The notes below the pieces were generated by a model. The model saw nothing but the letters and a program-made list of their open reading frames with translations, had not been told where the DNA came from and made no database searches. 64,000 nucleotides of DNA, from NCBI RefSeq assembly GCF_014197795.1, contig NZ_JACIGI010000001.1, positions 174,213 to 238,212 of the forward strand, given 5' to 3'. A program made the position numbers and the translations under genes. Shown here one piece after another: positions 7,096-64,000 of this stretch. The DNA is from Roseospira goensis (GTDB taxonomy: Bacteria > Pseudomonadota > Alphaproteobacteria > Rhodospirillales > Rhodospirillaceae). The first letter of the stretch is position 1. Each line of letters opens with the position of its first letter.

Positions 7096-7100
7096 GAGCC

Positions 7101-30984: not shown

Positions 30985-33759
30985 ATGACCAAGAGACTAC
31001 TGATAGACACGGGCCACCCGGAAGAAACCCGGGTGGTCGTGCTGGACGGCACACGCCTTGAAGAATTTGACGTCGAGACCAGCACCAAGAAACAGATCAA
31101 GGGAAACATCTACCTCGCCAAGGTCGTCCGGGTCGAACCCTCCCTTCAGGCCGCGTTCGTCGAGTACGGCGGCAACCGTCATGGCTTCCTGGCCTTCAGC
31201 GAGATCCATCCGGACTACTATCAGATCCCGGTGGCCGATCGGCAGGCCCTGATCGCCGAGCAGACCGAGCGCCAGCGCGCCGCCGAGGCCGAAGAGGAAA
31301 GCCGGGCCGAGCGCGGCGCCGGTCGCGGCAACGGTAATGGCAACAATGGCAACGGCGACTCCGGGTCCGGTGCCGGGCGCGACAGCGAGGATGTCGAGGA
31401 GCTGGGGGGCGAGGAGACGGTCGCCGCCGCCTCACCGCAGCTTCAGGCCAACATGCTGCGCCACTACAAGATTCAGGAGGTCATCAAGCGGCGTCAGATC
31501 CTGCTGGTGCAGGTCGTCAAGGAGGAGCGCGGCAACAAGGGCGCGGCCCTGACCACCTACCTGTCGCTGGCGGGGCGCTACTGTGTGTTCATGCCGAACA
31601 CCGCCCGGGGCGGCGGCGTGTCGCGCAAGATCAGCAGCCAGGCCGACCGGCGCCGGCTCAAGGGCATTCTCGCCGACCTGCACGGTCCGCCCGGCGGTTC
31701 GGTGATCCTGCGCACCGCCGGCGCCGAGCGCAGCAAGGCGGAGATCAAGCGCGACTTCGAGTTCCTGATGCGGCAGTGGGAACAGATCAAGGACACCACG
31801 CTGAAGTCGATCGCCCCGGCGCTGATCCACGAGGAGGCCAACCTCATCAAGCGCGCCATCCGCGACATCTACACCCGCGATGTCGAGGAGGTGATCGTGG
31901 ACGGCGAGGACGGCTACCGCGCCGCCAAGGACTTCATGAAGATGCTCACCCCGTCGCACGCACGGAAGGTGAAGCCGTACCGCGATCAGACCATGCCGCT
32001 GTTCCACCGCTTTCAGGTGGAAAGCCAGCTCGACGCCATGCACAGCCCGGTGGCGCAGCTCCGCTCCGGCGGCTACGTGGTCATCAACCAGACCGAGGCG
32101 CTGGTCGCCATCGACGTCAACTCCGGCCGCGCCACCAAGGAACGGCACATCGAGGAGACGGCCCTCAAGACCAACCTTGAGGCCGCCGACGAGATCGCTC
32201 GCCAGCTCCGGTTGCGGGACCTGGCCGGCCTGATCGTCATCGACTTCATCGACATGGACGACAACCGCAACAACGCGGCGGTCGAGCGGCGCCTGAAGGA
32301 GGCCCTGAAGCAGGACCGGGCGCGCATCCAGATGGGCCGCATCAGCGCCTTCGGGCTGATGGAACTGTCGCGCCAGCGGCTGCGCCCCAGCCTGATGGAA
32401 ACGGCGTTCCACACCTGCCAGCACTGCCACGGCACCGGCGTGGTGCGCTCGATCGAATCGACGGCGATCCAGATGCTGCGGGTGCTGGAAGAGGAGGGCG
32501 TGCGTCGCCGCTCGGCCGAGGTCACCCTGCGGGTGCCGACGCCGGTGGCGCTGTACATCCTCAACAACAAGCGCGCCATGCTGACGGCGATCGAGGCCCG
32601 CTACGAGTTCCGGGTCAGCATCGAGGGCGACGACAGCCTCATCATCCCCGCCTACACCATGGACCGGGTGCGGGCCGAATCCCGCCCGGGGGCCGAGGCC
32701 ACGGCGCCCGAGCGTGAGCCGGTCGCGACCGAGGAGCCCCCCGAGGCGTACGACAACGATAACGATGACGACGGCGAGGACGACGACCTCCCCGACCGGG
32801 CGGACCAGCGCGAGGCCGCACGCGACGGCGACGACGCCAGCACCCGCAAGAAGCGCCGCCGCCGCCGCCGCAAACCGAAGCGCGACGATGCCGGCGAGCG
32901 CAGCGGCGACGAGGCGCGCGACGAGCGCGATGACCGCGAAGAGCGAGACGAGGGTGACGACGGCGAGGGGCGTGACGAACGCGACCAGCGCGACCAGCAC
33001 CAGGACGACGACGCGTCGGCCGACGACGACGCCGGCAATGGCGACGGCAACGGCGACGGCGACGGCGACGCCAACGGCAACGGTGACGACGACGGCGGCA
33101 ATGGCGGCAGCAGTCGGTCGCGGCGGTCGCGCCGACGGCGCGGCGGACGGCGCAACCGCCGGAGCTCCGGGACGGAGGCCGAGGACGGCGCCGACGGCGC
33201 GGGCTCCGGCGAGGCGGCTCCCGCCCCCGACACGGCCGCACCCGTGACCGAAAGCGATGGCGAGTCGGTCAACGCCACCGACGCCGAGGCGGCCGTTCTT
33301 GCCCTGGCCGCGCCCGACGAGCGGTTGGCCCTGGCCCCACCGGTCGAGACGGAGGCCGAGACGGAGACCGAAGCCAAGACCGAGACCGCGCCCGCGCCGG
33401 TGACCCCGGTGCCGTTCGGGCCCGCCGCCGGAGAGCCGGAGCCCGCATCTGAGCCGGGGATCGCGGCCGAGGCGCCCGCCAGCCCGGCCGACGCGGCCGG
33501 CGAAGAAGCGGCGGACCAGGGGGCGGAGGCCACCGAGGCCCCGGCAGAGGCGGCCGAGACCGCGCCCGAGGAGAGTCCCGAGGAGGCCCCCGCCGAGGCC
33601 CCCGCCGCGGCGCCGGATGAGACGCCCGAGGCGGCTCCCGAGCCGGCCCCCACCGAAGCCCCCACCGAAGCCCCCACCGATGGGCAGCCCGAGGGCACGG
33701 ATGCGGCCCAGGCCGCGAACGGCGAGCCCGGAGGGCGTCGCGGCTGGTGGCGCCGGTAA
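30985..33759 (+). CDS. rne: Ribonuclease E/G
   Basis: 924 residues. Endonuclease for mRNA decay and rRNA/tRNA processing, and degradosome scaffold. ATG 30985 begins the conserved MTKRLLIDTGHPEETRVVVL. An S1 domain (about 35-190) is interrupted by a Gly/Asn/Ser-rich insert, as in alphaproteobacterial RNase E. The catalytic Asp residues are in AIDVNSGRAT and VIDFIDMDD, and the Zn-link Cys pair in CQHCHGTG. From about residue 580 a long tail follows: acidic DDDGEDDD, basic KKRRRRRRKPKR, Asp/Gly/Asn repeats, a second Arg block and a Glu/Ala/Pro-rich end, typical of disordered RNA- and partner-binding segments. Confidence 0.94.
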   Translation: MTKRLLIDTGHPEETRVVVLDGTRLEEFDVETSTKKQIKGNIYLAKVVRVEPSLQAAFVEYGGNRHGFLAFSEIHPDYYQIPVADRQALIAEQTERQRAAEAEEESRAERGAGRGNGNGNNGNGDSGSGAGRDSEDVEELGGEETVAAASPQLQANMLRHYKIQEVIKRRQILLVQVVKEERGNKGAALTTYLSLAGRYCVFMPNTARGGGVSRKISSQADRRRLKGILADLHGPPGGSVILRTAGAERSKAEIKRDFEFLMRQWEQIKDTTLKSIAPALIHEEANLIKRAIRDIYTRDVEEVIVDGEDGYRAAKDFMKMLTPSHARKVKPYRDQTMPLFHRFQVESQLDAMHSPVAQLRSGGYVVINQTEALVAIDVNSGRATKERHIEETALKTNLEAADEIARQLRLRDLAGLIVIDFIDMDDNRNNAAVERRLKEALKQDRARIQMGRISAFGLMELSRQRLRPSLMETAFHTCQHCHGTGVVRSIESTAIQMLRVLEEEGVRRRSAEVTLRVPTPVALYILNNKRAMLTAIEARYEFRVSIEGDDSLIIPAYTMDRVRAESRPGAEATAPEREPVATEEPPEAYDNDNDDDGEDDDLPDRADQREAARDGDDASTRKKRRRRRRKPKRDDAGERSGDEARDERDDREERDEGDDGEGRDERDQRDQHQDDDASADDDAGNGDGNGDGDGDANGNGDDDGGNGGSSRSRRSRRRRGGRRNRRSSGTEAEDGADGAGSGEAAPAPDTAAPVTESDGESVNATDAEAAVLALAAPDERLALAPPVETEAETETEAKTETAPAPVTPVPFGPAAGEPEPASEPGIAAEAPASPADAAGEEAADQGAEATEAPAEAAETAPEESPEEAPAEAPAAAPDETPEAAPEPAPTEAPTEAPTDGQPEGTDAAQAANGEPGGRRGWWRR

Positions 33760-47476: not shown

Positions 47477-48766
47477 ATGGATGCGCACCAAGGCCTTACC
47501 TGCCTTTTGATCGAAGACAACGTGGCGGACGGGCGTCTGATCCAGTATCTCCTGGACGATGCGGACGGAGCCCCCCTGACCTTCACCCACGTCCGCACCC
47601 TGTCCCAGGCCCTGACGGTCCTGGCGCGCGAGTCCTATGACGTCATCCTGCTGGACCTGACGCTGCCCGATTCGGAGGGCCTGGTGACGCTGGAGACGGT
47701 GCACCGGGCCCGCGCCGACATCGCCATCGTGGTCCTGACCGGGATCGACGCCACCGATGTCGCCATCGGCGCGGTCCAGCGCGGCGCCCAGGACTATCTG
47801 GTGAAGGGGCGCGGCGACGGCCAGCTCATCAAGCGGTCGATCCTGTACGCCGTCGAGCGGCACCGCGCCAACCAGCGCCTCTTGCTGGCCGAGGCCGCCT
47901 TCCGCAACATCGACACCGGCATCATGGTGACCGATGCCGCCGGCAAGGTGGTGCGGGTCAACCCCGCCTTCTCGCGCGTCACGGGCTACGACGGCCACGA
48001 GATGGTCGGCGGTCAACCCAACGTGCTGCACGCCGGCGTGCACGAGCCGGCGTTCTACGATGAACTCTGGCACCAGTTGCGCGAGACCGGCGCCTGGGAA
48101 GGCGAGATCTGGAACCGGCGCAAGGACGGCAAAGTCTATCCCGAGTGGCTGCGCATCAACGTGGTCACCGACGAGAGCGGCGGCATCGCCGGCTACGTCG
48201 CCATCTTCAGCGACATCACCTTCCGCCGCCGGGCCGAGCAGGAGTTGTTGCGCCAGGCCACCACCGACCCCCTGACCGGCCTGGCCAACCGTCAGCTCTT
48301 CACCCGCCTGCTGACCAGCACGGTGGAACAGGCCACCCGCTATCAGCGCGACGCCGCCCTGCTGTTCCTGGACCTGGACGGCTTCAAGGCGGTCAACGAC
48401 ACCGCCGGGCACTCGACCGGGGACGCCGTGCTGCGCGAGATCGGCGGCCGGCTGCGCGGCGCCGTGCGCATCTCCGACGAGGTGGCGCGCCTGGGCGGCG
48501 ACGAGTTCGTGGTCATCCTGCCCGAGGTGCGCGGCCGCGAGGCCGCCGCCGCGGTGGCCGAGAAGCTGTTGCAGGAGACCACCCGGCCGTTCGCCGAGGA
48601 CCTGACCGGCATGCGCCTGACCGCGAGCATCGGCATCGCCATGATCCCCGACGATGGGGTCAGCTACGAGAGCTTGTTGCACGCCGCCGACGCCGCCATG
48701 TACCAGGCCAAGCGCGCCGGCAAGAATGCGATCCGCTTCTTCTCCGGTCACGCCGCGGCGTGCTAG
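47477..48766 (+). CDS. REC-PAS-GGDEF response regulator (diguanylate cyclase)
   Basis: 429 residues. Receiver with Asp60 (VILLDLTLPDSEG) and the switch Thr (VVLTGID), PAS (about 140-255, VNPAFSRVTGYDGHEMVG) and GGDEF domain (about 260-425). The active site is intact (LGGDEF, 340-344) and an I-site RxxD (RISD, 331-334) lies exactly five residues upstream, predicting product feedback inhibition. It should make c-di-GMP in response to a kinase and a PAS ligand. The ribosome site is weak. The upstream 215-base gap has no clear promoter. Confidence 0.9.
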   Translation: MDAHQGLTCLLIEDNVADGRLIQYLLDDADGAPLTFTHVRTLSQALTVLARESYDVILLDLTLPDSEGLVTLETVHRARADIAIVVLTGIDATDVAIGAVQRGAQDYLVKGRGDGQLIKRSILYAVERHRANQRLLLAEAAFRNIDTGIMVTDAAGKVVRVNPAFSRVTGYDGHEMVGGQPNVLHAGVHEPAFYDELWHQLRETGAWEGEIWNRRKDGKVYPEWLRINVVTDESGGIAGYVAIFSDITFRRRAEQELLRQATTDPLTGLANRQLFTRLLTSTVEQATRYQRDAALLFLDLDGFKAVNDTAGHSTGDAVLREIGGRLRGAVRISDEVARLGGDEFVVILPEVRGREAAAAVAEKLLQETTRPFAEDLTGMRLTASIGIAMIPDDGVSYESLLHAADAAMYQAKRAGKNAIRFFSGHAAAC

Positions 48767-50186: not shown

Positions 50187-50301
50187 AAATTCCCGCGCGA
50201 CCCGGCCCTGGTGTCCCATGCGGTCACCCAGGTCCCGGTCCCCAGGCTCAGTTCCCAGACTCGGCGGTGCGCCGCGACGCGCACCGCATGCGGAGTGGTC
50301 C

Positions 50302-51498
50302 ATGATAGTCTCCCGCCGGCCCCGGGTCGCGTGCGCGCTGGTGCTCGCGATCGTGACGCTTTCCTGCATCCCGGCCGCCCTGGCCCAGGCGCCGCAGCAA
50401 GGCGGAGGCGAGCGCCCGCCCCCCACCGTCACCGTGGTGACCCTGGCCGCCCAGGATGTCACCCTGACCGCCGACCTGCCCGGGCGCGTGGTGGCCTCGG
50501 CGGTGGCCGAGGTGCGGCCGCAGGTGGACGGGATCATCATCGAACGCCTGTTCCACGAGGGCTCCGACGTCACCGTCGGCCAGCCCCTGTACCGGATCGA
50601 CGATGCGACCTACGAAGCCCGCGTCGCCTCCGCCCGGGCCCAGGTGGCGCAGGCGCAGGCGGAGCTGCGCGCCGCCGAACGCGACGCCGACCGCCAGGGC
50701 GAGCTGGTGCGCCAGAAGGTCGCCAGCGTGCGCACCTATGACGAGGCGGTCGCCGCCCGCGACATGGCCGCCGCCGCCGTGCAGGTGGCCGAAGCAGCCC
50801 TCAACACGGCCCAGATCGACCTGGACCGGACCACCATCAAGGCGCCGCTCGACGGTGTCATCGGCCGGTCCCTGACCACCCAGGGCGCGCTGGTCACCAA
50901 CGGACAGACGCAGCCCTTGGCGATCATCCGGACCATTGACCCGGTGTTGGTCGACGTCACCCAGTCGGCGGCCGAGATCCTGGCCTGGCGGCGCGGCCAG
51001 ATGACCGAGGAGCGCGCCGCCACGGAGGCGCCGGTGACCCTGACCCTGGCCGACGGCGCGCGCTACGAGCACGTCGGCTCGCTGACCGCCGCCGAGCCCT
51101 ACGTCAATGAGCAGACCGGGGTGGTGACCCTGCGCCTGGAGTTTCCGAACCCGGACCGCCTGCTGCTGCCCGGCATGTACGTGCGCGTCGCCATGCCCCA
51201 AGGCGTGGCCGAGACCGTGGTCCTGGCCCCCCAGGAGGGCGTGACCTACGACCGCCGCGGCCGCCCCACCGCCATGGTGGTTACGCCCGACAACCGCGTC
51301 GAACAGCGCACCCTGGAGGTGATCGCGGCGCGCGGGGCCGACTGGATCGTGCGCGCCGGCCTGTCCGAGGGCGACCGCCTGATCGTCGAAGGACTTCAGA
51401 AGGTGCGCCCCGGCGCCCCCGCCGTGCCGGAGGAACGCGCCGCCACCCCCGAGCCCGCCCCGGCCGGGTCGCCCGAGACCGCCGCCACCCGCCCCTGA
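50302..51498 (+). CDS. RND efflux periplasmic adaptor (membrane fusion protein)
   Basis: 398 residues. Exported adaptor joining an RND pump to an outer-membrane channel. ATG 50302 follows GGAG and gives a signal peptide ending in AALAQA. There is no lipobox Cys at the cleavage site, although a Cys is present in the hydrophobic core (TLSCIPAALA). Lipoyl half-motifs are visible (VRPQVDGIIIERLFHEGSDV and TIKAPLDGVIGRSL), separated by a coiled-coil hairpin (about 110-165), with beta-barrel and membrane-proximal domains after. 27 bases to the pump gene. Confidence 0.92.
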   Translation: MIVSRRPRVACALVLAIVTLSCIPAALAQAPQQGGGERPPPTVTVVTLAAQDVTLTADLPGRVVASAVAEVRPQVDGIIIERLFHEGSDVTVGQPLYRIDDATYEARVASARAQVAQAQAELRAAERDADRQGELVRQKVASVRTYDEAVAARDMAAAAVQVAEAALNTAQIDLDRTTIKAPLDGVIGRSLTTQGALVTNGQTQPLAIIRTIDPVLVDVTQSAAEILAWRRGQMTEERAATEAPVTLTLADGARYEHVGSLTAAEPYVNEQTGVVTLRLEFPNPDRLLLPGMYVRVAMPQGVAETVVLAPQEGVTYDRRGRPTAMVVTPDNRVEQRTLEVIAARGADWIVRAGLSEGDRLIVEGLQKVRPGAPAVPEERAATPEPAPAGSPETAATRP

Positions 51499-51525
51499 TC
51501 CGATCGCCCACCGGGAGCCCGCGTC

Positions 51526-54500
51526 ATGGCCCGCTTTTTCATCGACCGCCCGGTGTTCGCCTGGGTGATCGCCATCATCATCATGGGCATCGGCGTGCTG
51601 TCGGTCCTGGCCTTGCCGGTGTCGCAGTACCCGGCCATCGCGCCGCCCACAGTCAGCGTCGCCGCGAACTACCCCGGCGCGTCGGCCGAGACCGTGGAGA
51701 GCACCGTCACCCAGGTCATCGAACAGCAGATGACCGGCCTCGACGGCCTGCGTTACCTGTCGTCCAGTTCGACCTCGGCGGGCACGGCCACCATCACCCT
51801 GACCTTCCGCACCGGCACCGACCCCGACATCGCTCAGGTGCAGGTCCAGAACAAGCTCAGTCAGGCCCAGCCGTTGCTGCCCGAGGTGGTGCAGCGCCAG
51901 GGCGTGACGGTGCAGAAGACGGCCGCCGGGTTCCTGATGGTGATCGGCCTGATCGCCGAGGACGGCGCCCTGACCCAGGTGGACCTGTCGGACTACCTGT
52001 CGTCCAACATCGTCGACGAGATCAGCCGCATCGACGGCGTCGGCGAGGTCGAGGTGTTCGGCTCGCCCTATGCCATGCGGATTTGGCTCGATCCGGAAAA
52101 GCTGGCCGCCTTCGAACTGGCGCCGTCCGACGTGGTGGCCGCGGTCTCGGCCCAGAACGCGCAGATCTCGGCGGGCCAGTTCGGCGCCCTGCCGGCGGTC
52201 GAGGGCCAGCAGCTCAACGCCACCATCACCGCCCAGTCGCTGTTGCAGACGCCGTTCGACTTCGAACAGGTCGTGGTCCGCGCCGAGACCGACGGCGGCC
52301 TGGTGCTGCTCAAGGACGTCGCCCGGGTCGAGATCGGCGCCGAGACCTATAACACCATCTCCCGCTACAACGGCCAGCCGGCGGCCGGCATGGCGCTGCG
52401 CCTGGCCAGCGGCGCCAACGCGCTCGACACCGCCGAGCGGGTCAAGGACCGGCTGGACGAACTGGCGCAGTTCTTCCCCGAGGGCGTCGTCTACACCATT
52501 CCCTACGACACCACGCCGTTCGTGAAGATCTCCATCGAGGAGGTGGTCAAGACCCTGTTCGAGGCCATCCTCCTGGTCTTCCTGGTGATGTACCTGTTCC
52601 TGGGCAACCTGCGCGCCACCCTGATCCCGACCCTGGCGGTGCCGGTGGTGCTGCTGGGCACGTTCGGGGTGCTGGCGGCGGCCGGGTTCACCATCAACAC
52701 GCTGACCATGCTGGCGATGGTGCTGGCCATCGGCCTGCTGGTCGACGACGCCATCGTGGTGGTGGAGAACGTCGAACGCATCATGGAGGAGGAGGGCCTG
52801 AGCCCGCGCGAGGCCACCCGCAAGTCGATGGGCCAGATCACCGGCGCCCTGATCGGAATCGCGCTGGTGCTGTCGGCGGTGTTCGTGCCGATGGCCTTCT
52901 TCGGGGGCTCCACCGGGGTGATCTACCGGCAGTTCTCCATCGCCATCGTCTCGGCCATGGCGCTGTCGGTGCTGGTGGCCCTGACGCTGTCGCCGGCCTT
53001 GTGCGCCACCCTGCTGAAGGCCCGCGACACGCACCCGAAACGCGGGCCGCTGGCCTGGTTCAACCGCGGCTTCGGCGGACTGACGCGCGGCTATACCAAG
53101 GGCGTGGGCGGCATCGTGCGCCGGCCGCTGCGCATCGGCGTCATCTACCTGGCGCTGGTGGGCGGCATGGGCTGGCTGTTCTCCCAGACGCCGACCGGCT
53201 TTCTGCCGGACGAGGATCAGGGCATCCTGTTCACCCTGGTGCAGGCCCCGTCCGGCGCCACCGCAGAACGCACGCTCGACGTGATGAAGCGGATCGAGAC
53301 CCATTTCAGCGAGGCCGAGCCGGAGACCGTCGAGTCGGTGTTCACCGTGGTGGGGTTCAGCTTCGCCGGTGTGGGGCAGAACGTCGGCATCGCCTTCGTG
53401 CGGCTGAAGGACTGGGACGAGCGGCCGTCGCCGGCGCAGAGCGTGCAGGCGGTGGCCGGGCGCGCCTTTGGCGCCCTCTCCCAGGTGCGCGACGCGCTCA
53501 TCTTCCCGATCGTGCCGCCGTCGGTGATCGAACTGGGCAACGTCTCCGGTTTCGACTTCTACCTTCAGGCCCGCGGCGGCCAGACCCACGAAGAGCTTCT
53601 GGCGGCCCGGAACCAGCTCATGGGCATGGCCGCCGAGAGCCCGCTGATCGGCTCCATCCGCCCCAACGGCCTCCAGGACGCGGCCCAGTTCTCGCTCGAT
53701 CTGGACTGGCGCAAGGCCGGCGCCATGGGGCTGACGGCGCAGGACGTGGCCAACCTGCTGGAGACCGCCTGGGCCGGGCGCTACGTCAACGACTTCCTGG
53801 ATCGCGGCCGCATCAAGAAGGTCTACGTGCAGGGCGAGGCCGAGGCGCGGCGCACCCCGGAGGATATCGAGCGCTGGCGGGTGCGCAACGCCAGCGGCGG
53901 GCTGGTGCCGTTCTCCAACGTGGCCGAGGCCGGCTGGCGCTTCGGGCCGCAGGGCCTGTACCGCTACAACGGGGTGCCGGCGATGCAGTTGCAGGGCCAG
54001 CCGGTGCCCGGCGTGACGACCGGCGAGGCGATGGACGAGATCGAACGGCTGGCGGCGCAGTTGCCGCCCGGCTTCGACGTGGCCTGGACCGGCCTGTCGC
54101 TGGAGGAGCGCGAGACCGGCGGCCAGGCGCCGTTGCTGTACGCCCTGTCGCTGGCGGCGGTGTTCCTGTCGCTGGCGGCGCTCTACGAAAGCTGGGCGAT
54201 CCCGGCGGCGGTGATGTTCGCCATGCCCATCGGGGTGCTGGGCGCGCTGGTGGCGGCCGCCATCGGCGGCTTCGCCAACGACGTCTTCTTCCAGGTTGGC
54301 CTGTTGACCACCATCGGCCTGACCGGCAAGAACGCGATTCTGATCGTGGAGTTCGCGCGCGCCCGCCAGGATGCCGGCGAGCCGCTGCTGGACGCCGTGG
54401 TCGAGGCGGCGCGCCAGCGCTTCCGGCCGATCATCATGACCTCGATGGCGTTCGGGCTGGGGGTGACCCCGCTGGTGTTGAGCAGCGGCGCGGGGGCGGC

Positions 54501-54675
54501 CGGGCGCAACGCCATCGGTTCGGGCGTGCTGGGCGGCACCATCGCCGCCACCGTGCTGGGTGTGCTGCTGGTGCCGCTGTTCTTCGTCGTCATCCGCCGG
54601 CTGACCCGGCGGACCGGCGCCAGCCGAACCGCCACCCCGGCCGAGCCGGTCGCGCCCGATACGCGCGCGACCTGA
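51526..54675 (+). CDS. RND multidrug efflux pump, HAE1 family (AcrB/MexB-like)
   Basis: 1049 residues, twelve membrane segments and two large periplasmic loops. It starts with [20 protein letters not shown], the signature N-terminus. Proton-relay residues are present: the Asp pair in [20 protein letters not shown] and the Lys in [18 protein letters not shown]. The length is normal for AcrB. It exports hydrophobic compounds with the adaptor. No outer-membrane TolC-type gene follows; the next gene is on the opposite strand, so the pump must borrow a channel encoded elsewhere. Confidence 0.94.
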
Positions 54676-55831: not shown

Positions 55832-55939
55832 GTGCTCCGAGATCGGACCAGGACCGGATGGACGTGGCCCTCGTTCGGGGCGCGCTCCCCTCTCCACCTC
55901 CAGACTCTCCACCTCCCACCTCCAGAAAGGAAGGGTGTG

Positions 55940-56809
55940 ATGGCTGAATCCTTTGGAGCCGGTGGTCCCAGCGGGTCGAGCGGCCTGCTGTCGTCCACCA
56001 TGCGGTCGATCGTCCGCCAGTCGGGTGATCCGCACGACCGTGACAGCCGCCGCGTTGAGGACGTGGTGGACCTGTCCCCCCTGGCCGCCCAGCGCCAGGA
56101 GACGCGCGGTCCGGTGGAACCGCCGGAGGCGTCCGACAGTCTGCGCAATCCGTCGTCGCATACGCCGCCGGCGGCGCGCCTGCGCGCCGACGACAAGGCG
56201 GACGAGGCCGACGAGGCCGAGGCGGCCGCCCGCGAGGCCCGCGCCGCCCAGCGCGAGGCCGACGGCGAGAACGTGGACGCGACGGCGGGGCCGGTCAACA
56301 TCGGCATGGCGGCCGCCATCGCAATCGGCGTCCCGGAGATGGTGCGCCGCTTCGACACCAACGGCGACGAGCACCTGGACCAGGTCGAGCGCGAGCGGGC
56401 GCTGGAGACGGTGCAGACCGATACCGGGGTCCAGCGGGCCCGCGGCGGCGGCCCCCTGTTCGACCGCGTGCAGTTGGCGGAGGATGCTCCGCCCCGGGAG
56501 CAGGACGCCGGCGCCCCCGGTCAGGGCGAGACCGCCTACGCCGAGATGCAGGCGCGCCGGGCCGAATCGGCGCAGCGGCTCAGCGAGGCCGAGGCCAAGG
56601 CCGAGCGCGCCCGTGCCGAGCGTCTGGCGGCGCTGGACGAGCAGGCGGCCGATCGCGCCGCGGCGGCGGCGGCGCTGAGCGAGCCGGCTCCGCCTCAGGC
56701 GCCGGCATCCGCCCCGGCGTCCGCACCAGCCCCGGGGGCCGGCTCCGCCTATGCGCGCTCGGAGGACCTGGGTCAGCCCCATCCCACGCCGCGCGCCTTC
56801 AAGGCCTGA
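55940..56809 (+). CDS. Orphan single EF-hand protein, disordered and helix-rich
   Basis: 289 residues, function unknown. One canonical EF-hand loop, DTNGDEHLDQVE (near residue 139), has Asp/Asn/Asp at positions 1, 3, 5, Asp at 9 and Glu at 12, so Ca2+ binding is plausible. It follows a short hydrophobic stretch (IGMAAAIAIGVPEMVRRF). The rest is Ala/Glu/Arg-rich helix that may form coiled coil (about 195-250) and Pro/Ala-rich ends. There is no signal peptide. GGAAGGG precedes the ATG. It converges on the Tat-exported binding protein with 16 bases between stops. Confidence 0.75.
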   Translation: MAESFGAGGPSGSSGLLSSTMRSIVRQSGDPHDRDSRRVEDVVDLSPLAAQRQETRGPVEPPEASDSLRNPSSHTPPAARLRADDKADEADEAEAAAREARAAQREADGENVDATAGPVNIGMAAAIAIGVPEMVRRFDTNGDEHLDQVERERALETVQTDTGVQRARGGGPLFDRVQLAEDAPPREQDAGAPGQGETAYAEMQARRAESAQRLSEAEAKAERARAERLAALDEQAADRAAAAAALSEPAPPQAPASAPASAPAPGAGSAYARSEDLGQPHPTPRAFKA

Positions 56810-56825
56810 GCCTCACACGGCGCGG

Positions 56826-58277
56826 TCACTCCAGCAGGGCGCGCGCTTCGGCCTGGGCGGCGCGGGCCGCGGCCCGCGGGGCGGTCTCGCCGGCCAGCAC
56901 GCGCGCAACCATGCGACCCAGCACCCGCTCGGCGTACAGCAGCCCGGCCCGAGGATCGGCGTAGGGCCGCCCGGCCGCTTCTGCCACCACGGTGGAGGCC
57001 GTCGACGGGACCCGGAGCGCGGCGCCGAACCGGCGCGTGACGTCGCGGCCGAAGGCACGGAACACGCCCAGCCGGTCGCGCATGAAGGCGTCGGTCTCCA
57101 GGATGCCCCGCACCAGCGGGATCATGCCGCCCGGCGCCATGTGCAGCCAGGCGATGTAGGCGTCGCGGCGGAACAGGAACAGCGCCAGCGAGCGCGCCGC
57201 CAGGCGTTCGGCCGGGTCCCCGACGCCGGTCAGCCCGAGTCCGTTGATGGAGGAGAACGCGCCGATGGCCCCCGGCGCGGCGCCGCCCAGCGTGGCGATG
57301 GGGGCCGTCTTCTCCACCAGCAGCGGGTCGAACGGTGCCCCGTCCAGGTCGGGGAAATGCGCCCCGGTCAATGAGTCCTGGGCCACGGCGGGCACCGCCA
57401 GGTCGTCCATCAGGAACGTGGAGTAGACCAGGAACGCCGCTCGCCCCTGAAGGTAGTAGTCGCGCGCCCGCCAGGTCAGGGCGCCGGGACCGGCGGCCCG
57501 GGCCAGATCGGCGTAGGCCTCCAGCGCGGCGACCATGGCCGGGGTGTCGAGCTGCGGCGCTCCGTCCGGTCCCACGGTGCCGGCCCCGTAGGCGCGGGCG
57601 ATCATCATGAAACACTGCTGCGTGTAGAAGTCTCCCGTGGTGCCCAGGATGATGCCGCGCCGCCCGGCCGCCGGGTCGTGGAGCCGGTGGGCGGCGCGGC
57701 GCAGCGCGTCCACCGTCTGCGGCACCGGCTGGCCGAGGCTGTCCGCGAGCCAGTCGCGGCGCGCCCACACGATCTGCGGCCAGCCGTGGAACGGGATCGC
57801 CGCGAGGCGGCCGTCCGGCCGGCGCAGGGCGGCCAGGGCGCCGGTCTCGAACGTGGCGTCGCCCAGGGTCTGCACGACCCGGTGTCCATCGCGACTCAAC
57901 AGGCCCAGCGTGTCCAGCGCCAGCAGCGTGTCGGCGCCGGTGTTGACAAGGTGCGGTATGGGGATCCGGCTGGCGGGATCATGCGCCGCGCGCAACCGCG
58001 CCACCACGTCCTCCTCCGCCACCGTCTCGATCACGACCGGCGGCTGACCGGCGAAGGCGGCCTGCACGTCGAGCAGGTAGCGGATCACCGTGACCCGGTC
58101 GGCGCCGCGTTCGGTGGTCCAGAAGCGGAGCTTGATCCCGGGCTCCGGCGGGTCCGTGCCGAGCGCCGACAGGGGCGCCGTGCCGGAGGGCTGGCCCTGC
58201 GCCCACCGTGGGGCGCCGCCCAGGACGGCGGCGCCGGCGGCGAGGCCGAGCAGGCGGCGGCGGCCGATGACGGTCAT
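56826..58277 (-). CDS. Tat-exported extracellular solute-binding protein (family 1-like)
   Basis: 483 residues. A twin-arginine signal peptide (IGRRRLLGLAAGAAVLGG) leads to a two-lobed binding protein resembling sugar-type (family 1) receptors: strand LRFWTTERGADR, the lobe-crossing AIPFHGWPQIVWARRDWL and the GRAAFLVYSTFL segment. Such proteins normally feed an ABC transporter, but no permease or ATPase gene is present. Instead its ATG overlaps the stop of a membrane adenylate cyclase (ATGA). GGAGGG lies just upstream of the start. Ligand unknown. Confidence 0.85.
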   Translation of the reverse strand: MTVIGRRRLLGLAAGAAVLGGAPRWAQGQPSGTAPLSALGTDPPEPGIKLRFWTTERGADRVTVIRYLLDVQAAFAGQPPVVIETVAEEDVVARLRAAHDPASRIPIPHLVNTGADTLLALDTLGLLSRDGHRVVQTLGDATFETGALAALRRPDGRLAAIPFHGWPQIVWARRDWLADSLGQPVPQTVDALRRAAHRLHDPAAGRRGIILGTTGDFYTQQCFMMIARAYGAGTVGPDGAPQLDTPAMVAALEAYADLARAAGPGALTWRARDYYLQGRAAFLVYSTFLMDDLAVPAVAQDSLTGAHFPDLDGAPFDPLLVEKTAPIATLGGAAPGAIGAFSSINGLGLTGVGDPAERLAARSLALFLFRRDAYIAWLHMAPGGMIPLVRGILETDAFMRDRLGVFRAFGRDVTRRFGAALRVPSTASTVVAEAAGRPYADPRAGLLYAERVLGRMVARVLAGETAPRAAARAAQAEARALLE

Positions 58278-60544
58278 TTGCCCTCCATCCGTCGGACTTC
58301 GCTCCAGTGCACGGCGGCCTCGGGGTCACGGGCCAGTCCGTCGGCCAGGTCGCGGAAGCTGGCGGCCAGCGTGTCGTCCGGACGCGCCGCGGCCATTGCG
58401 GCGAAGGCGTCGCGGGCGCCCGCCCAGTCCCCCGCCCGGCGCAGCCGGTCCTGCGCCTCGGCCCAGCGGCGGGCGTAGTCGACCGTTGCGGCGTCGACCA
58501 CGGCGGCCGGGTCGGCGCGCCCGCTGGCGGCGAGGTCGGCGTCCGGGTGCACGCCCATCAACTCGAACACACGGATTGGCGCGTGCGCGCCCTTGGGCAC
58601 CACGTGGTCGATCTCGCGCAGGACGAAGCGGCCGGCGGCGCGGGTGGCGACGGGCTCGGACACCAGGATCTCGGTCCCGTAGACCTTGTTCAACCCCTCG
58701 ATGCGGGAGGCCGTGTTCACGGCCGCCCCGATGGCCGAGTAGTCCATGCGGTCGGACGAGCCCAGGTTGCCCACCACGGCCTCGCCCACGTGCAGGCCGA
58801 AGCGGGTGCGGAAGACCGGAACGCCGCGCGCGGCCAGGCCGGCGTTGAACGCCGCCACCCGGTCGCGCGCCGCCAGCGCCCCCAGACACCCGAGGGTCAC
58901 GTGGTCGTCGGTCGGGGTTGGCGCGTTCCACAACGCCATGACGGCATCGCCGATGAACTTGTCGATCACGCCGCCGTGGGCGTTGATCGCCGCCGTCATC
59001 TCCTCGAAATACAGCGAGGTGCGCACCATCAGGTCTTCGGGCGGCAGCGTCTCGGCGATGGTGGTGAAGTCGGCGATGTCGGTGAACAGCAGCGTGAGTT
59101 CGCGGCGCTGGCCGCCGGGTTCGGCCGAGCCGCCCGCGGCCAGGATCTGGCGCACCAGGTCCTTGGGCACGTACAGGCCGAAGGTGCGCAGCGACTCCTT
59201 CATCATGGTGTGGGCGCGGGCCAGATCGTGGATCTCGCGCACGATGGTCTGCACCCGCACGCCGTGATCGAGGTCGAGGCGCTGGACCCGCCCGGCATCC
59301 TCCGCCAGCAGCGCCAACGCCCGCGACATGCGCCGCGCCACCAGCCAGGTCAGCGGGATTCCCAGCAGCGCCACGGCGGCCGCGAACAGCAGGCTGTTGG
59401 CGATCAGCGTGTCGACCGGGCCGGTGAAGTCCGACAGCGGGGCCGCCATGGCGACCGCCAGGTCGCGCGTGCCCGGCATGGCGACGTCCATGCGCCGCAC
59501 CAGCATGGGCTCTTGCGTCCCGGCCATTTCAACCACATGCACGTCGGTCGTCGCGGCGTCCGTGACCAGCGCGCGCGCGATCGCGGGATCCCCGAGGTCG
59601 CCGAGGGAGAGCGGCCGGCCGCGCACATACTCGGCGCCGGTGCGCAGGCCGTCGCGGTTCCGGTAGGCGATCACCTGGCCGTCGCTGGTCGCCACCAGCA
59701 GCCGGCCGTTGGGCGACAGGGTCTGCGCCGCCAGGAAGTCGGCGATCGAGGCCAGCGTCAGGTCGATGCCGAGCACCCCGGGCACGTTGCCGTCGAACGG
59801 CCGCGCCAGGGTGAGTCCGGGCAGGCCGAGACTGGCGAAGGTGTAGATGTCGGTCATGACCGTGGCCTTGGTGGCCCGGGCCTCCGCGTACCAGGGCCGC
59901 GCCCGCGGGTCGTAGCGCGGGTGCGCGTCGATGCGCGAGCCCAGCATCACCCGGTCGCGGTCCAGGAAGGTCCAGATCTGAAGCCGGTCGCCGCCCGGGC
60001 GCGGCAGGATGACGCGATGGATGAACCGGGTCTCCGGCGGCGCGCCGTGGGTCAGGCGGACCGTACGCGCCCGCACAAGGTCCTCGCGCGGCGAGGCGGC
60101 CCGCTCGGGGACCGCGATAAGCTGGTAGAAGCGGCCGTCGGCGTAGCCCATGTAGCCCGAGTACAGCGTGGGATAGGACTCCAGCGCCTGCATGATGTAC
60201 CAGCCGGCGGAGTGGATCAGCAGATCGGGCGGGGTGGCGATCTCGGGCAGCGACGAGGACATTTCGGCCAGCACGGCGGCGGGCGAGAACAGGGTCTCGA
60301 TGCGGTGCGCGACCTTGGCCGTCAGTTCGCGCGACAGCGCCCGGCCGGTGGCCTCGGCGACCGAGCGGCCCTGCACATAGGTGAAGCCGGTCAGGGCGAG
60401 CACGACCAACACCGTGATGGCGGCCATGATGGTGAACAGGTTGAGCACCAGCGGCAGATACCGGGGTGCGGTCTTCCCCCTCGGTGCGTCGGGGGGGCGG
60501 CTTTTCTGCGCGGTCGGTCGGGGCTGGGGCGGGCGTGTCGCCAT
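58274..60544 (-). CDS. Membrane adenylate cyclase with periplasmic dCache-type sensor
   Basis: 756 residues. Membrane segment (about 32-56), periplasmic sensor (about 60-375) with Cache features (ARPWYAEARATKATVMTDIY, LGIDLTLASIADFL), second membrane segment (about 383-405), a HAMP-like linker and a class III cyclase domain (about 480-650). Catalytic residues are complete: metal Asp489 (FTDIADF) and Asp533 (FIGDAVMALW), adenine-selecting Lys529 and Asp601, Asn610 and Arg614. It should make cAMP in response to a periplasmic ligand. A helical tail of about 100 residues follows. The 4-base overlap with a binding-protein gene suggests the two act together. Confidence 0.9.
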   Translation of the reverse strand: MATRPPQPRPTAQKSRPPDAPRGKTAPRYLPLVLNLFTIMAAITVLVVLALTGFTYVQGRSVAEATGRALSRELTAKVAHRIETLFSPAAVLAEMSSSLPEIATPPDLLIHSAGWYIMQALESYPTLYSGYMGYADGRFYQLIAVPERAASPREDLVRARTVRLTHGAPPETRFIHRVILPRPGGDRLQIWTFLDRDRVMLGSRIDAHPRYDPRARPWYAEARATKATVMTDIYTFASLGLPGLTLARPFDGNVPGVLGIDLTLASIADFLAAQTLSPNGRLLVATSDGQVIAYRNRDGLRTGAEYVRGRPLSLGDLGDPAIARALVTDAATTDVHVVEMAGTQEPMLVRRMDVAMPGTRDLAVAMAAPLSDFTGPVDTLIANSLLFAAAVALLGIPLTWLVARRMSRALALLAEDAGRVQRLDLDHGVRVQTIVREIHDLARAHTMMKESLRTFGLYVPKDLVRQILAAGGSAEPGGQRRELTLLFTDIADFTTIAETLPPEDLMVRTSLYFEEMTAAINAHGGVIDKFIGDAVMALWNAPTPTDDHVTLGCLGALAARDRVAAFNAGLAARGVPVFRTRFGLHVGEAVVGNLGSSDRMDYSAIGAAVNTASRIEGLNKVYGTEILVSEPVATRAAGRFVLREIDHVVPKGAHAPIRVFELMGVHPDADLAASGRADPAAVVDAATVDYARRWAEAQDRLRRAGDWAGARDAFAAMAAARPDDTLAASFRDLADGLARDPEAAVHWSEVRRMEGK

Positions 60545-60616
60545 GTCGGGTCAGGATCCATCGGGCGAGCGGACCCGGGCGTGCGGGCCCGGTCACGGCA
60601 TCGGGCCGGCCGCGGC

Positions 60617-63100
60617 TCAGGATCGCCGCTGGTGGTGCCCGATGTCCACGGCGTCGAGCTGCTCGGGCAACAGGTAGGTCTCCGCGTAGTCCCTCCAGAC
60701 GCCCGACCGCAGGAACAGGTCGAACAGGTCCGGGTCGATGTGGTCGCCGTCGCGCATCCGGCTCATGATGTGCAGGGCCTCCGACAGTGTCTTCGGCGGT
60801 TTGTACGGCCGGTCGGCCGCCGTCAGGGCTTCGAAGATGTCGGCGATGGCCATGATGCGCGCCGGGATCGACATGGTGCCACCCATGATGCCGCGTGGAT
60901 AGCCGGTGCCGTCCATTTTTTCGTGATGACCGCCGGCGTATTCGGGGACCCGCCGGAGGTGCTTGGGCAACGGCAGGCTTTCCAGCATGACGATGGTCTG
61001 CACGATGTGGTCGTTGATCTTGAAGCGCTCCTCGTCGGTCAGCGTGCCGCGCCGGATGGTCAGGTTGTAAAGCTCGCCAAAGTTGAACTGCCGTTCCGGC
61101 GCGACCATCGTGAAGCCGCGCGGATCGTTCTCGGTGATCGGCCGGACACCGCCCGGCCACTCCACCACGTGTTCGGGCTTGTCGTCGAGCAGGCGTTCCT
61201 CGGCCGGTAGGGGGCGCGGCGGGATGTGGTCCAGCCGCTCCAGCTCGGCGTGGGACAGGCCCAGGCGGTCGTCGAAGTGCCGCGTCCAGGTCTGCGCCGC
61301 GATGGCCTCCAGGCGGGCGACCTGATCGTCGCCCAGGGATTCGCCGCCGACGTTGCAGGTCGCCACGAACGCGAACTCGTCCTGCAACCGGGCCTGGGCG
61401 CGGGCGCGCTCGGCGGCCGCGGCCTCCGGGTCGGCGCCGGCCAGCAGGGCGCGGCATTCCGCGATCTCGGCGTCGCGCCACAGGATTTCGAAGCGGGTCC
61501 GGATCTCATGGATGCGGTTGCAGAGGGTCTCCAGCTTGGTGGCTTTGTCCACGACGTATTCCGGGCTGGTGACCTTGCCGCAGTCGTGCAGCCAACTGGC
61601 GATGTGCAGTTCGTACCACTCCTCCTCGGTCAGGTCGAAGTCGGCGAAGGCGGTGCGGTCGGCGCAGGCCGCCTCGGTCAGCATGCGGGTCAACTCCGGC
61701 ACCCGCGAGCAGTGGCCGCCGGTGTACGGCGACTTGGCGTCGATGGCGCCGGCCATCAGTTCGATGAAGGCATCCAGAAGCTTGCGCTGGCTTTCCAGCA
61801 GGACCTGGTTCTCCAGGGCGACGCCGGCCTGGGCCGCCAGCGACTGCGCCACGCCGGCGTCGGCGGCGTTGAACGGCCGCACGGTGCCCGTGTCCCGGTC
61901 GGTCGCGTTGATGAGTTGCAGCACGCCGGTGACGTCGCCGCGCCGGTTCCTCAGCGGGACCGCGAGGACCGACGTGGTCCGGTAGCCGTGGGCGGCATCG
62001 AAGGCGCGCGGGCCGGTGAAGTCGAACGCCGCGCTGTCGTAGACATCGGGGATGTTGACCGTCTCGCCGGTCAGGGCGGCGTGGGTGGCGAGGTTGGCGT
62101 GGTTCGGCGCGCCGTCCGGATGGTGCAGCGGCAGCGGCGCGAACGGGATCTCCTCGCCCTCCTCGCCGCCAAGGTGGATGGCGAGGCTGGCGTTGAGCAT
62201 GATCGCGAAGTCCAGGCGATCGGCCTCTTCGTTCAGCAGGTAGAGCGTGCCGCCGTCGGTGTGGCACAGGTCCGAGGCGGCGCGCAGCGCGGTCTCGACC
62301 AGCCGGCGCGGACTGCGTTCGGAGCCCATGCGAATGCCCAGGTCCACCAGTCGGCGGCGGGCCTCTTCCAGGGTGGTCCGCCGGCGTTCCATGGCGTTGA
62401 AGGCGTCGATGACCTCCCCCAGTTCGTCGCGGCTCTGGTGCGGTACCCGGCGGCCCGACGGGCGCGTCGGGTCGGCCACCATGGCCGCCCGCAGGCGCTG
62501 CAACGGCCGGAACACCAGGCGACTCGTGGTCACCTCGACAAGGGCGATCAGCACGCCCATGACCACCAGGATGGTCAGCAGATCGGTCAGCAGCGCCCGT
62601 TGCAGCGCCGCCAGGACGCGGGCATCGTCGAAGGCGACCCGCAGCACACCCAACTCGATCCGCTCGCCCGGCGCGGCATGAACCAGCGCCGCGGTCCGGT
62701 GCAGGCGTGCGTCGGGGTCGAACGCCGCCACGTCGCCGGCCTGGGCCACGACGCGGCCGCCCGCCTCGCGTACCTCCAGCGCCCGCAGGTCGGGATGGCT
62801 GGCCATGGCCTGGACCAGTGTCCGGGTCATGGCGTCGTCGAAGGCCCACATCGGCGCCGCCAGGATGGGGGCATTGGTGGTCACGAAGGTGTCGAGGCGC
62901 TGTCGCAGTTGGTCGAGCGCATGGCTGTAGGCGCGCCATTCCAGCACCGCAAACAGCGTCATCAACACCAGCATCAGCACCGGGACGTAGATGCCCAGCA
63001 GCTTCAGGCGCAACGACTGGACCCGCGGCGGTTCGGGCGGCGTTGGCGCCTTGTCCGCTCCGGGCTCGGGAGCCGCGTCCGGCGGCCGGCCGTTTTTCAC
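60617..63100 (-). CDS. Membrane GAF/HD-GYP protein with large insertion (c-di-GMP phosphodiesterase candidate)
   Basis: 827 residues from GTG 63100 (GGAGG 8 bases upstream). Membrane segment (about 32-55), periplasmic region (55-165), second segment (170-190), HAMP (about 190-245), GAF (about 262-430) and an HD-GYP domain. The HD motif HDCGK (505-509) and the GYP motif HHEKMDGTGYP (725-735) are intact, but about 150 residues separate HD from the next conserved His (NDHI, 695-698) where about 25-30 are usual. The insert (about 530-680) is helical and charged. The start overlaps the stop of a family-3 binding protein (GTGA). Confidence 0.9.
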   Translation of the reverse strand: MKNGRPPDAAPEPGADKAPTPPEPPRVQSLRLKLLGIYVPVLMLVLMTLFAVLEWRAYSHALDQLRQRLDTFVTTNAPILAAPMWAFDDAMTRTLVQAMASHPDLRALEVREAGGRVVAQAGDVAAFDPDARLHRTAALVHAAPGERIELGVLRVAFDDARVLAALQRALLTDLLTILVVMGVLIALVEVTTSRLVFRPLQRLRAAMVADPTRPSGRRVPHQSRDELGEVIDAFNAMERRRTTLEEARRRLVDLGIRMGSERSPRRLVETALRAASDLCHTDGGTLYLLNEEADRLDFAIMLNASLAIHLGGEEGEEIPFAPLPLHHPDGAPNHANLATHAALTGETVNIPDVYDSAAFDFTGPRAFDAAHGYRTTSVLAVPLRNRRGDVTGVLQLINATDRDTGTVRPFNAADAGVAQSLAAQAGVALENQVLLESQRKLLDAFIELMAGAIDAKSPYTGGHCSRVPELTRMLTEAACADRTAFADFDLTEEEWYELHIASWLHDCGKVTSPEYVVDKATKLETLCNRIHEIRTRFEILWRDAEIAECRALLAGADPEAAAAERARAQARLQDEFAFVATCNVGGESLGDDQVARLEAIAAQTWTRHFDDRLGLSHAELERLDHIPPRPLPAEERLLDDKPEHVVEWPGGVRPITENDPRGFTMVAPERQFNFGELYNLTIRRGTLTDEERFKINDHIVQTIVMLESLPLPKHLRRVPEYAGGHHEKMDGTGYPRGIMGGTMSIPARIMAIADIFEALTAADRPYKPPKTLSEALHIMSRMRDGDHIDPDLFDLFLRSGVWRDYAETYLLPEQLDAVDIGHHQRRS

Positions 63101-63939
63101 CGTCCGTCCTCCGCCAGCGCCGCCAGGGCGGTGTTGATGCGCGCGATGGTCCCGGCCCCGACGGAGCGGCTGCACAGCAGGTGGCGGCTGTTGCCCGGCG
63201 GCATGTCCGGCAGCGACACCGTGGCCAGATCGCCGCCCGCCACGCCGAACGCGTCGATCACGGCGTCGCCCTCCTCGGCCGCCACGATCATGTAATCGAA
63301 GCGCCGCCCCAGCAGCATGCGGACCAGCCCCGTGTCATCCTGGGAGACCGTCGTGCGCGGCGGGTCGGCGCCCGCGATGGCGGCATCCAGCGCGGGGCCG
63401 TAGGAGTAGCCGAGCTTGGTACCCAGGCGCAGGGTCGGGTCGGCCAGCAGCGCGCGCACCGTGCCATGGGACAGCACGGCCCCATTGTCCGCGCGCGTCA
63501 GGACGACCTGGGGCCGGTCCCGATAGACCGGCGCCGTGAACAGGCCGAGGGACTCCCGCGATGCGGTCCGGAACCAGCCCACCGCGCACACCGGCCCCCG
63601 ATCCGCCGCCACCGTGCGCAGGTGTCCGTTGGGCGGCAGCAGGCGCCAGGTGAACGGGACGCCGGCGGCCTCCAGGGCGCGCGCCACCCGTCCCGCGACC
63701 AGGCCGGTGTAGCCGCCGGCGGGCACCGGCTCATAATAGGGTGGGCGGTTGAACACCAGCAGGGTGATGGGGTCGACGCGGCCGGCGGACGCGTCCGCCG
63801 GGGTCGGGGCGTCGGGCGACCCGGTCCTCACCTCGGCCGCCGCCACGGCGGCGACGTGGCCACCGGCGGTCACGGCCGCCGCGACCGCCACGGACCGGAC
63901 CCAGCGGGACAGATGGCGCACGGGAGAGCGGGTCGTCAT
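63097..63939 (-). CDS. Periplasmic solute-binding protein, family 3 (SBP_bac_3-like)
   Basis: About 280 residues. A signal peptide (hydrophobic VAVAAAVTAGGHVAAVAAA) is followed by a two-lobe receptor fold: ITLLVFNRPPYYEPVPAGGY and TGLVAGRVARALEAAG at the start, CAVGWFRTASRESLGLFTAPV in the first lobe (shown in part), DTGLVRMLLGRRFDYMIV in the second, and a C-terminal helix TIARINTALAAL. This matches amino-acid-type family 3 receptors, of the shorter kind often fused to sensor proteins. No ABC transporter genes adjoin. ATG 63939 or GTG 63945 may be the start. First gene of the two-pair signalling cluster. Confidence 0.85.
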   Translation of the reverse strand: MTTRSPVRHLSRWVRSVAVAAAVTAGGHVAAVAAAEVRTGSPDAPTPADASAGRVDPITLLVFNRPPYYEPVPAGGYTGLVAGRVARALEAAGVPFTWRLLPPNGHLRTVAADRGPVCAVGWFRTASRESLGLFTAPVYRDRPQVVLTRADNGAVLSHGTVRALLADPTLRLGTKLGYSYGPALDAAIAGADPPRTTVSQDDTGLVRMLLGRRFDYMIVAAEEGDAVIDAFGVAGGDLATVSLPDMPPGNSRHLLCSRSVGAGTIARINTALAALAEDGR

Positions 63940-64000
63940 GGGCACGCACTCGAGATCTCGCCAGGGCGCCTACCCTAGCATGGTCAACGACTCCCGACAC

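Follow-up and report, generated by a model that had tools for sequence, protein, structure and literature searches.

Organization of the Locus

A four-gene array lies on the minus strand of the 64,000-nucleotide stretch of DNA analyzed here, from the purple bacterium Roseospira goensis (G000:C1:174213-238212; this whole stretch is called the window, and its genome is G000). It encodes a family-3 solute-binding protein (SBP3), a membrane protein with an HD-GYP domain, a dCache class III adenylate cyclase, and a family-1 solute-binding protein (SBP1). The features are listed in Table 1; other genomes carry G numbers and other loci L numbers. The gene order, the common strand, the GTGA and ATGA overlaps, and the 72-base gap, all described in a first-pass annotation of this DNA, were confirmed on re-reading. 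That annotation ended the SBP3 gene at 63939, which is an in-frame ATG, whereas we place the start at the GTG at 63945. The signal peptide of SBP3 was judged by eye.

The arrangement of the four genes is more than chance, because the overlaps recur in relatives and the cyclase–SBP1 order recurs in other phyla. Within the genus, the SBP3 and HD-GYP genes overlap by 4 bases (ATGA or GTGA) in all four genomes that have this pair (the window, G033, G035, and G036). The cyclase and SBP1 genes likewise overlap, by 4 bases or by 1, in L084, L085, L086, L087, L103, and L111, and not in the other loci shown. The absence of permease and ATPase genes reported by the annotation holds: none of the eight neighbors of the array scanned with Pfam belongs to an ATP-binding cassette (ABC) permease or ATPase family.

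Table 1. Features of the four-gene array (positions in the window)
Feature	Position	Strand	Remarks
Four-gene array	63945–56826	(-)	Order SBP3, HD-GYP, adenylate cyclase, SBP1
SBP3, family-3 (amino-acid type) periplasmic binding protein, 282 aa	63097-63945	(-)	GTG start
GTGA overlap SBP3/HD-GYP, 4 bases	63097-63100	(-)	
CHASE5-HAMP-GAF-HD-GYP membrane protein, 827 aa	60617-63100	(-)	Predicted to hydrolyze c-di-GMP or a related cyclic dinucleotide
Periplasmic CHASE5 domain of the HD-GYP protein	62621-62929	(-)	Residues 58-160; Pfam 29.7 bits, cut-off 27
HD_5, C-terminal part of the HD-GYP catalytic domain	60725-61132	(-)	Residues 657-792; Pfam 160.5 bits
72-base gap between the two gene pairs	60545-60616	(-)	
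dCache class III adenylate cyclase, 756 aa	58274-60544	(-)	
Periplasmic dCache sensor region of the cyclase	59402-60370	(-)	About residues 59-381, bounds by eye; alignment to PctA, conservation
Catalytic domain of the cyclase	58589-59104	(-)	Residues 481-652; Pfam
ATGA overlap cyclase/SBP1, 4 bases	58274-58277	(-)	
SBP1, YcjN-type family-1 binding protein, Tat-like signal, 483 aa	56826-58277	(-)	

Identity of the Four Proteins

SBP1 is a YcjN-type sugar-binding protein by both sequence and fold. It matches the Pfam family SBP_bac_1 with 29.2 bits (cut-off 26), and its profile matches the solved structures 7v09 (E 9.5e-61), 8vqk, which is Escherichia coli YcjN (E 2.6e-60), and 8ula (E 1.3e-55). 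An AlphaFold2 model built from 33 sequences (predicted local distance difference test, pLDDT, 89.6) again has 8vqk as its best solved match (Foldseek E 1.9e-27). The twin-arginine translocation (Tat) signal noted in the first pass was found again: a Tat-type RR is present in the SBP1 of the window, L084, L085, and L086, and absent in L112 and L113. Six residues (Q168, W171, R173, Q221, R272, and H379) do not vary across the 33 aligned rows, among permease-linked and receptor-linked proteins alike. Therefore, a binding site is probably kept.

SBP3 scores 24.5 bits with SBP_bac_3, slightly under the gathering cut-off of 26.4, and many of its homologues bear that Pfam label. Its sole NCBIfam match is TIGR02285 (34.4 bits, E 1.4e-8); membership in that family was rejected by NCBI's rule, the family cut-off being 143.3. 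The AlphaFold2 model (pLDDT 88.1, 43 sequences) has amino-acid binding proteins as its nearest solved folds, namely ArgBP, TTC0807, NocT, and GlnP (E ~1e-12 to 1e-11). Residues C120, R130, G183, and R254 are found in all 43 aligned sequences and C258 in 42 of them; R130 is presumably the carboxylate-binding Arg position. A comparison of the SBP3 alignment with viral contigs found no relative.

The cyclase matches Guanylate_cyc with 46.4 bits, and its sensor region reaches 38.1 bits with dCache_1 (cut-off 45). Its profile is closest to the solved structures 6fht, 2w01, and CyaB (3r5g). The catalytic residues that the annotation had called intact are indeed present in both enzymes. In the cyclase these are D489, K529, D533, S603, N610, and R614. 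We take D489 and D533 to be the two metal-binding aspartates, K529 and S603 to form the adenine site, and N610 and R614 to act on the transition state. The protein thus has the residues of a class III adenylate cyclase, and formation of cyclic AMP (cAMP) is predicted.

The HD-GYP protein contains the motifs HDCGK and HHEKMDGTGYP and matches the HD_5 profile, so that hydrolysis of a cyclic dinucleotide is predicted. Its substrate could be cyclic di-GMP (c-di-GMP) or cyclic GMP-AMP (cGAMP), because its solved relatives include, besides 4mcw, the c-di-GMP enzyme 4r8z and the cGAMP enzyme 5z7c. The annotation had read the architecture as HAMP-GAF-HD-GYP. The GAF (54.2 bits) and HD-GYP domains stand, HAMP remains just under its threshold (23.7 bits, cut-off 25), and the periplasmic CHASE5 domain had not been named. 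The spacing between HDCGK, near residue 505, and the stretch with the GYP motif, from residue 723 (within residues 504-735 of the protein encoded at 60617-63100), looks longer than usual. A paralogue with 56% identity, matched only from residue 239, is encoded at G000:C3:185368-187047. In Roseospira navarrensis, a second, tandem CHASE5-HD-GYP gene, 66% identical to that of the window, lies upstream of SBP3 (L085 1-1725; G033:C113:35929-38316).

The Cyclase–SBP1 Pair across Phyla

The SBP1 alignment was used to scan the collection of species genomes once for relatives; the scan relies on two short peptide patterns and gave an incomplete list of 41 loci. These were classified with profiles for the cyclase, SBP1, and permeases, the permease profiles being built from the permease-linked loci themselves. 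A cyclase-family gene lies directly upstream of SBP1 in 14 of the 41 loci. ABC permease genes follow SBP1 in 25 loci, with both genes in 23 and one before the contig end in L119 and L124. Two loci (L110 and L118) are cut by a contig edge. An upstream cyclase is possible in L100, L105, L114, and L123, which start at a contig edge, as is a downstream permease in L089 and L111, which end within 153 bases. No permease adjoins the receptor-linked SBP1 in 12 of the 14 loci, and L089 and L111 end too soon; in L088, an unrelated permease is encoded on the opposite strand, some 4.7 kb upstream. In L112, from a Rhodobacteraceae assembly, the cyclase gene (27-1803) seems frame-broken in the sensor region.

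The pair of cyclase and SBP1 is found in three phyla, in Alphaproteobacteria, Desulfovibrionaceae, and spirochaetes, and it is the principal finding of the analysis. The pairing has the look of a receptor and not of an uptake system. One spirochaete genome (G703) carries both a permease-linked and a cyclase-linked SBP1 (L102 and L115). In L087, the partner gene (6559-7914) encodes a 452-residue dCache-type membrane protein without a cyclase domain and without a Pfam hit, which aligns with the dCache region. It still overlaps SBP1 by 4 bases, as if SBP1 tracks the sensor rather than the cyclase domain.

In the SBP1 tree (42 rows), permease-linked and receptor-linked proteins fall on the two sides of one branch with support 100/99. 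The split appears in 100% of 200 bootstrap trees, and none of 500 shuffles gave a value as low. The tree is unrooted, so that it gives no direction of change, and L112 and L115 have long branches. Binding proteins beside permeases, which the first-pass annotation had held would speak against its proposal, do occur among the SBP1 relatives, and all 25 are across one branch from the receptor-linked group. The split offers a simple rule separating transport from sensing within one family.

Within the Desulfovibrionaceae, SBP1 is present in 23 of 247 genomes (E 1e-60), and in all 23 the cyclase gene is directly upstream on the same strand. No permease was found in the flank of about 1.5 kb of any of the 23 (the flank of L176 being only 153 bases). 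Five of these genomes overlap the 41-locus set (L088, L091, L094, L089, and L090, the last two by an identical catalytic domain). The cyclase itself occurs in 37 of the 247 genomes (E 1e-90), and all 23 SBP1 genomes are among them.

It could be argued that SBP1 and SBP3 work with ABC permeases whose genes lie at other sites, and that their signaling neighbors reflect co-regulation, with the enzyme controlling uptake. The sister group acts in transport, as the 25 permease-linked loci illustrate, and it is common for a binding protein to work with a distantly encoded permease. Against this explanation, the receptor-linked SBP1 proteins stand on a separate side of the tree, the 23 Desulfovibrionaceae loci uniformly pair with a cyclase and have no permease in their flanks, and SBP1 is the only copy of its family in five of the six receptor-linked genomes probed (E 1e-30). 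We consider orphan transport unlikely on these grounds, with YcjO/YcjP-like permeases elsewhere in G000 outside the search. The annotation's suggestion that the binding proteins are tied to receptor enzymes and not to transporters has strong support for SBP1.

Probable Direct Sensing by the Cyclase and Possible Ligands of SBP1

The sensor region of the cyclase aligns with the amino-acid receptor PctA (E 3.4e-9). The amino-acid motif of dCache_1AA domains comprises, in PctA numbering, Y121, R126, W128, Y129, Y144, and D173 (PMC10104139). All six have counterparts in the cyclase of the window: Y211, R216, W218, Y219, Y234, and D261. When Y/F exchanges are allowed, the motif is kept in all 14 receptors that are linked to SBP1 and whose sensor region is intact (L112 left out, as are 18 further Desulfovibrionaceae loci without a whole sensor region), in 11 of the 14 Desulfovibrionaceae cyclases that lack SBP1, and in 6 of 17 other cyclases of the family. 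Because the motif is kept both with and without SBP1, the cyclase likely takes direct amino-acid input independently of SBP1. The possibility that SBP1 is the sole input of the cyclase was rejected, as cyclases with the same motif positions occur without SBP1.

For the ligand of SBP1, we scanned 10 hand-picked genes in 9 of the 27 cyclase-less SBP1 loci, and all NCBIfam scores were below the curated cut-offs. At this level, the neighbors resemble glucosylglycerate hydrolase and a debranching enzyme (L096), a GH38 mannosylglycerate hydrolase (L097), mannosylglucosylglycerate synthase (L121 and L105), sucrose phosphorylase (L101, L104, and L122), GpgS (L114), and a PfkB kinase (L106). The neighbors of these permease-linked sisters thus offer a lead that the ligand of SBP1 may be a glycoside. 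For E. coli YcjN itself, one study reports that no ligand is known and that no thermal shift was seen with kojibiose or any other sugar tried (PMC11543891).

The conservation of the motif, in SBP1-linked receptors and in most SBP1-less Desulfovibrionaceae cyclases, could also mean that the cyclase senses an amino acid through its dCache domain alone, SBP1 only buffering or delivering the same ligand without docking. We regard this as quite improbable. The two ligands probably differ, because SBP1 belongs to a sugar-type family and some of its permease-linked sisters lie near glycoside enzymes.

The SBP3–HD-GYP Pair and Arrangement in the Genus

The second pair is rarer than the first. A near-home search of 74 genomes of the family, 7 of them of the genus, found the SBP3–HD-GYP pair in 4 of the 7. 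Relatives of SBP3 are present in 31 of 318 genomes of the order at E 1e-8 (38 matches, 30 with loci) and in 9 of 385 genomes of the class at E 1e-10, that of the window included. A sensor gene lies directly downstream of SBP3 in 10 of 29 order loci (L147, a 71-residue fragment, left out): the HD-GYP gene in the window, G033, G035, and G036, and sensors in L129, L130, L138, L145, L151, and L152. Some SBP3 relatives precede sensors with outputs other than HD-GYP; in G040 (Roseospirillum parvum), the gene after a relative with 44% identity encodes a HAMP-containing hybrid histidine kinase. CHASE5 scores above the Pfam cut-off in the window, L138, and L151. No ABC permease family is among the 25 commonest of the 96 families formed by the 77 neighboring open reading frames scanned, single-member families not all being listed. 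The four recurring overlaps and the other sensors downstream in some relatives give moderate support for linking SBP3 with a receptor enzyme rather than with transport.

The locus consists of two separable pairs and not of an obligate four-gene unit, because genomes of the genus and related genomes hold one pair without the other. All four genes occur in order in three of the seven genus genomes (G000, R. navarrensis G033, and G035, an uncultured Rhodospira sp.). G036 has the SBP3–HD-GYP pair alone. Conversely, G040, G039, and G065 have the cyclase and SBP1 without this HD-GYP gene adjoining.

The first-pass annotation had read the four genes as a single system, with two receptors together adjusting cAMP and c-di-GMP, and had suggested looking for the four families in this order in related genomes. 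The common strand, the 72-base gap, and the three complete genomes agree with such a system, as does a scan of the region around the genes, which showed no terminator-like site on the minus strand. The pairs are, however, incomplete or apart in the other four genus genomes, and 12 of the 14 receptor-linked loci have the cyclase and SBP1 without this HD-GYP gene in the sequence covered. The Roseospirillum, Desulfovibrionaceae, and spirochaete loci likewise show the cyclase–SBP1 pair without an adjoining HD-GYP gene, which was not searched for in the set of 23 Desulfovibrionaceae loci. One obligate system is thus very improbable, and the claim as stated was not upheld; it holds only locally, in the three complete genomes. 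Where the two pairs are adjacent, in three genomes of the Roseospira group, they may be co-transcribed, and co-transcription could couple cAMP and c-di-GMP control.

Proposed Mechanism

We propose that the locus encodes two receptor modules side by side, with SBP1 as a co-receptor of the cyclase (module A) and SBP3 reporting to the HD-GYP protein (module B), a reading to which we assign a probability of roughly two in three. In module A, the dCache domain of the cyclase would bind an amino acid directly, and the exported YcjN-type SBP1 would act as a co-receptor. Loaded with its ligand, SBP1 would dock onto dCache and alter cAMP output by way of the second transmembrane helix and the catalytic domain, much as maltose-binding protein gives the aspartate receptor Tar a sugar input. 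In module B, SBP3 would report to the CHASE5 domain, and its signal would alter cyclic-dinucleotide breakdown. The domain content, the catalytic residues, the overlaps, the spread of the cyclase–SBP1 pair over phyla, the split of the SBP1 tree, and the amino-acid motif are observed. The docking, the ligands, the direction of regulation, and any crosstalk between the modules are what we infer here.

A mirror-tree comparison of SBP1 and cyclase distances speaks for module A: it gave r 0.876, with none of 2000 permutations as high (13 pairs, L087 and L112 dropped). Such a correlation fits shared ancestry and interaction alike. Several other observations weigh against this reading. For module A, 14 of the 37 Desulfovibrionaceae genomes with the cyclase have no SBP1. 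On the cyclase tree (65 rows, from the second membrane helix to the catalytic part), the SBP1 label requires 8 changes, at least 6 of them on well-supported branches. Because this label changes repeatedly, SBP1 is an optional partner of the cyclase, gained or lost several times. The SBP1 and cyclase trees share only 5 of 10 splits. For module B, no sensor lies directly downstream of SBP3 in 19 of the 29 order loci and in all 8 class loci. In addition, three of the seven genus genomes (G032, G034, and G037) have a full-length HD-GYP gene without either binding protein adjoining. The HD-GYP gene of G032 is at the same site, beside malic enzyme, and weak SBP3-type matches occur elsewhere in G034 (E 9.4e-6) and G032 (E 1.1e-11). 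Finally, an adjoining binding protein need not interact with its neighbor, since PA4985 and AruS are reported to show no two-hybrid interaction (PMC11113362).

The amino-acid motif of the cyclase and the sugar-type nature of SBP1 suggest, by analogy, a Tar-like dual input for module A. In its fullest form, which we offer only tentatively, Alphaproteobacteria, Desulfovibrionaceae, and spirochaetes would share a dual-input cyclase that responds to an amino acid via dCache and to a glycoside via an optional YcjN-type co-receptor. This glycoside is perhaps glucosylglycerate or a related compatible solute. In the Roseospira group, the cyclase would be joined to an HD-GYP enzyme controlled by a binding protein, and a single locus would make both cAMP and c-di-GMP answer periplasmic nutrients.

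If module A works as proposed, cAMP joins the messengers under binding-protein control, and a number of sugar-binding proteins now annotated as "orphan" would be sensory. It would also become possible to test which signals feed into some of the class III cyclases of bacteria.

Relation to Known Systems

Tar of E. coli combines a direct amino-acid pocket with a sugar input via maltose-binding protein, a MalE-like binding protein, and module A would likewise combine direct amino-acid and sugar inputs. In contrast, Tar is a chemoreceptor with a different type of sensor domain and not a dCache cyclase, and the docking of SBP1 in module A is a proposal. MbaA is a GGDEF-EAL protein. Among the titles and abstracts searched, the nearest described case is NspS-MbaA of Vibrio cholerae and Sinorhizobium meliloti, in which a periplasmic binding protein controls a membrane protein that takes part in the turnover of a second messenger. 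NspS senses polyamines, whereas the outputs here are an HD-GYP protein and an adenylate cyclase, and the binding proteins are of family 3 and YcjN-type family 1.

The YcjN-type proteins (8vqk, 7v09, and 8ula) share family and fold with SBP1. YcjN is encoded beside the permease genes ycjO and ycjP, whereas the group to which the SBP1 of the window belongs is cyclase-linked. The linkage to permease genes that marks a component of an ABC importer is missing among the scanned neighbors of this locus. At both pairs, a binding-protein gene adjoins that of a receptor with a periplasmic domain, as in receptors activated by binding proteins. The dCache_1AA receptors such as PctA have the motif positions found in the cyclase sensor region. 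Unlike PctA, the protein of the window has an adenylate cyclase as output and is followed by a binding-protein gene, and in the alignment F236 takes the place of PctA D146.

Known targets of binding proteins are chemoreceptors, sensor kinases, diguanylate cyclases and phosphodiesterases, and Ser/Thr kinases. In E. coli, binding proteins can activate each of the four chemoreceptors that have a periplasmic domain (PMC9602780). The receptor types listed as activated by binding proteins in the accessible part of that source do not include adenylate cyclases. For the periplasmic binding protein clan in c-di-GMP networks, only SBP_bac_3 is described as studied, as a domain of RmcA, in the portion available of PMC8846402. 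Titles and beginnings of abstracts in the open-licence literature contained no description of a binding protein–adenylate cyclase receptor pair. The annotation had known of no description of the pairing. This is too broad for the principle, since NspS-MbaA is a described case of a binding protein acting on a second-messenger enzyme; only the outputs, an adenylate cyclase and an HD-GYP protein, would be new.

Neighboring Genes and Further Observations

The first neighbors upstream, beyond the window, encode a divergent malic enzyme, a histidine kinase, and a glutamine synthetase (Pfam). Downstream lie a convergent open reading frame without a Pfam family (55832-56809), an OmpR-type regulator, a resistance-nodulation-division (RND) pump accompanied by its fusion protein, and a protein with REC, PAS, and GGDEF domains. 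The pump (50218-54675) is the nearest transporter among the eight scanned neighbors. The REC-PAS-GGDEF protein (47477-48766), also encoded in the window, may synthesize c-di-GMP. A promoter scan around the four genes returned no sites, and an Rfam scan of the window at the gathering cut-off returned no families. GC-rich tandem repeat arrays occur at 20196-20297 and 32879-33680.

No SBP1-like gene lies beside the 14 Desulfovibrionaceae cyclases that lack SBP1, and the idea that a binding protein stands beside every cyclase of the family was rejected. Among 10 hand-picked neighbors of these cyclases scanned with Pfam (the rest were viewed by eye), two are binding proteins, and their arrangement differs. 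One is of the DctP type, from tripartite ATP-independent periplasmic (TRAP) transporters, and is encoded upstream on the opposite strand (L202 169-1443). The other, of the ABC_sub_bind family, lies beyond a chemoreceptor gene (L209 5813-6982).

Two further associations were seen in the wider cyclase family. A small cyclic-nucleotide-binding protein is encoded beside a related cyclase in L043 (1041-1436, Pfam), with similar genes, by eye, in L044, L053, L054, L056, and L058. An SBP_bac_5 binding protein lies directly upstream of adenylate cyclases in L163 (G065), L164 (G010), and L165 (G009), apparently a second, separate pairing of a binding protein with a cyclase.

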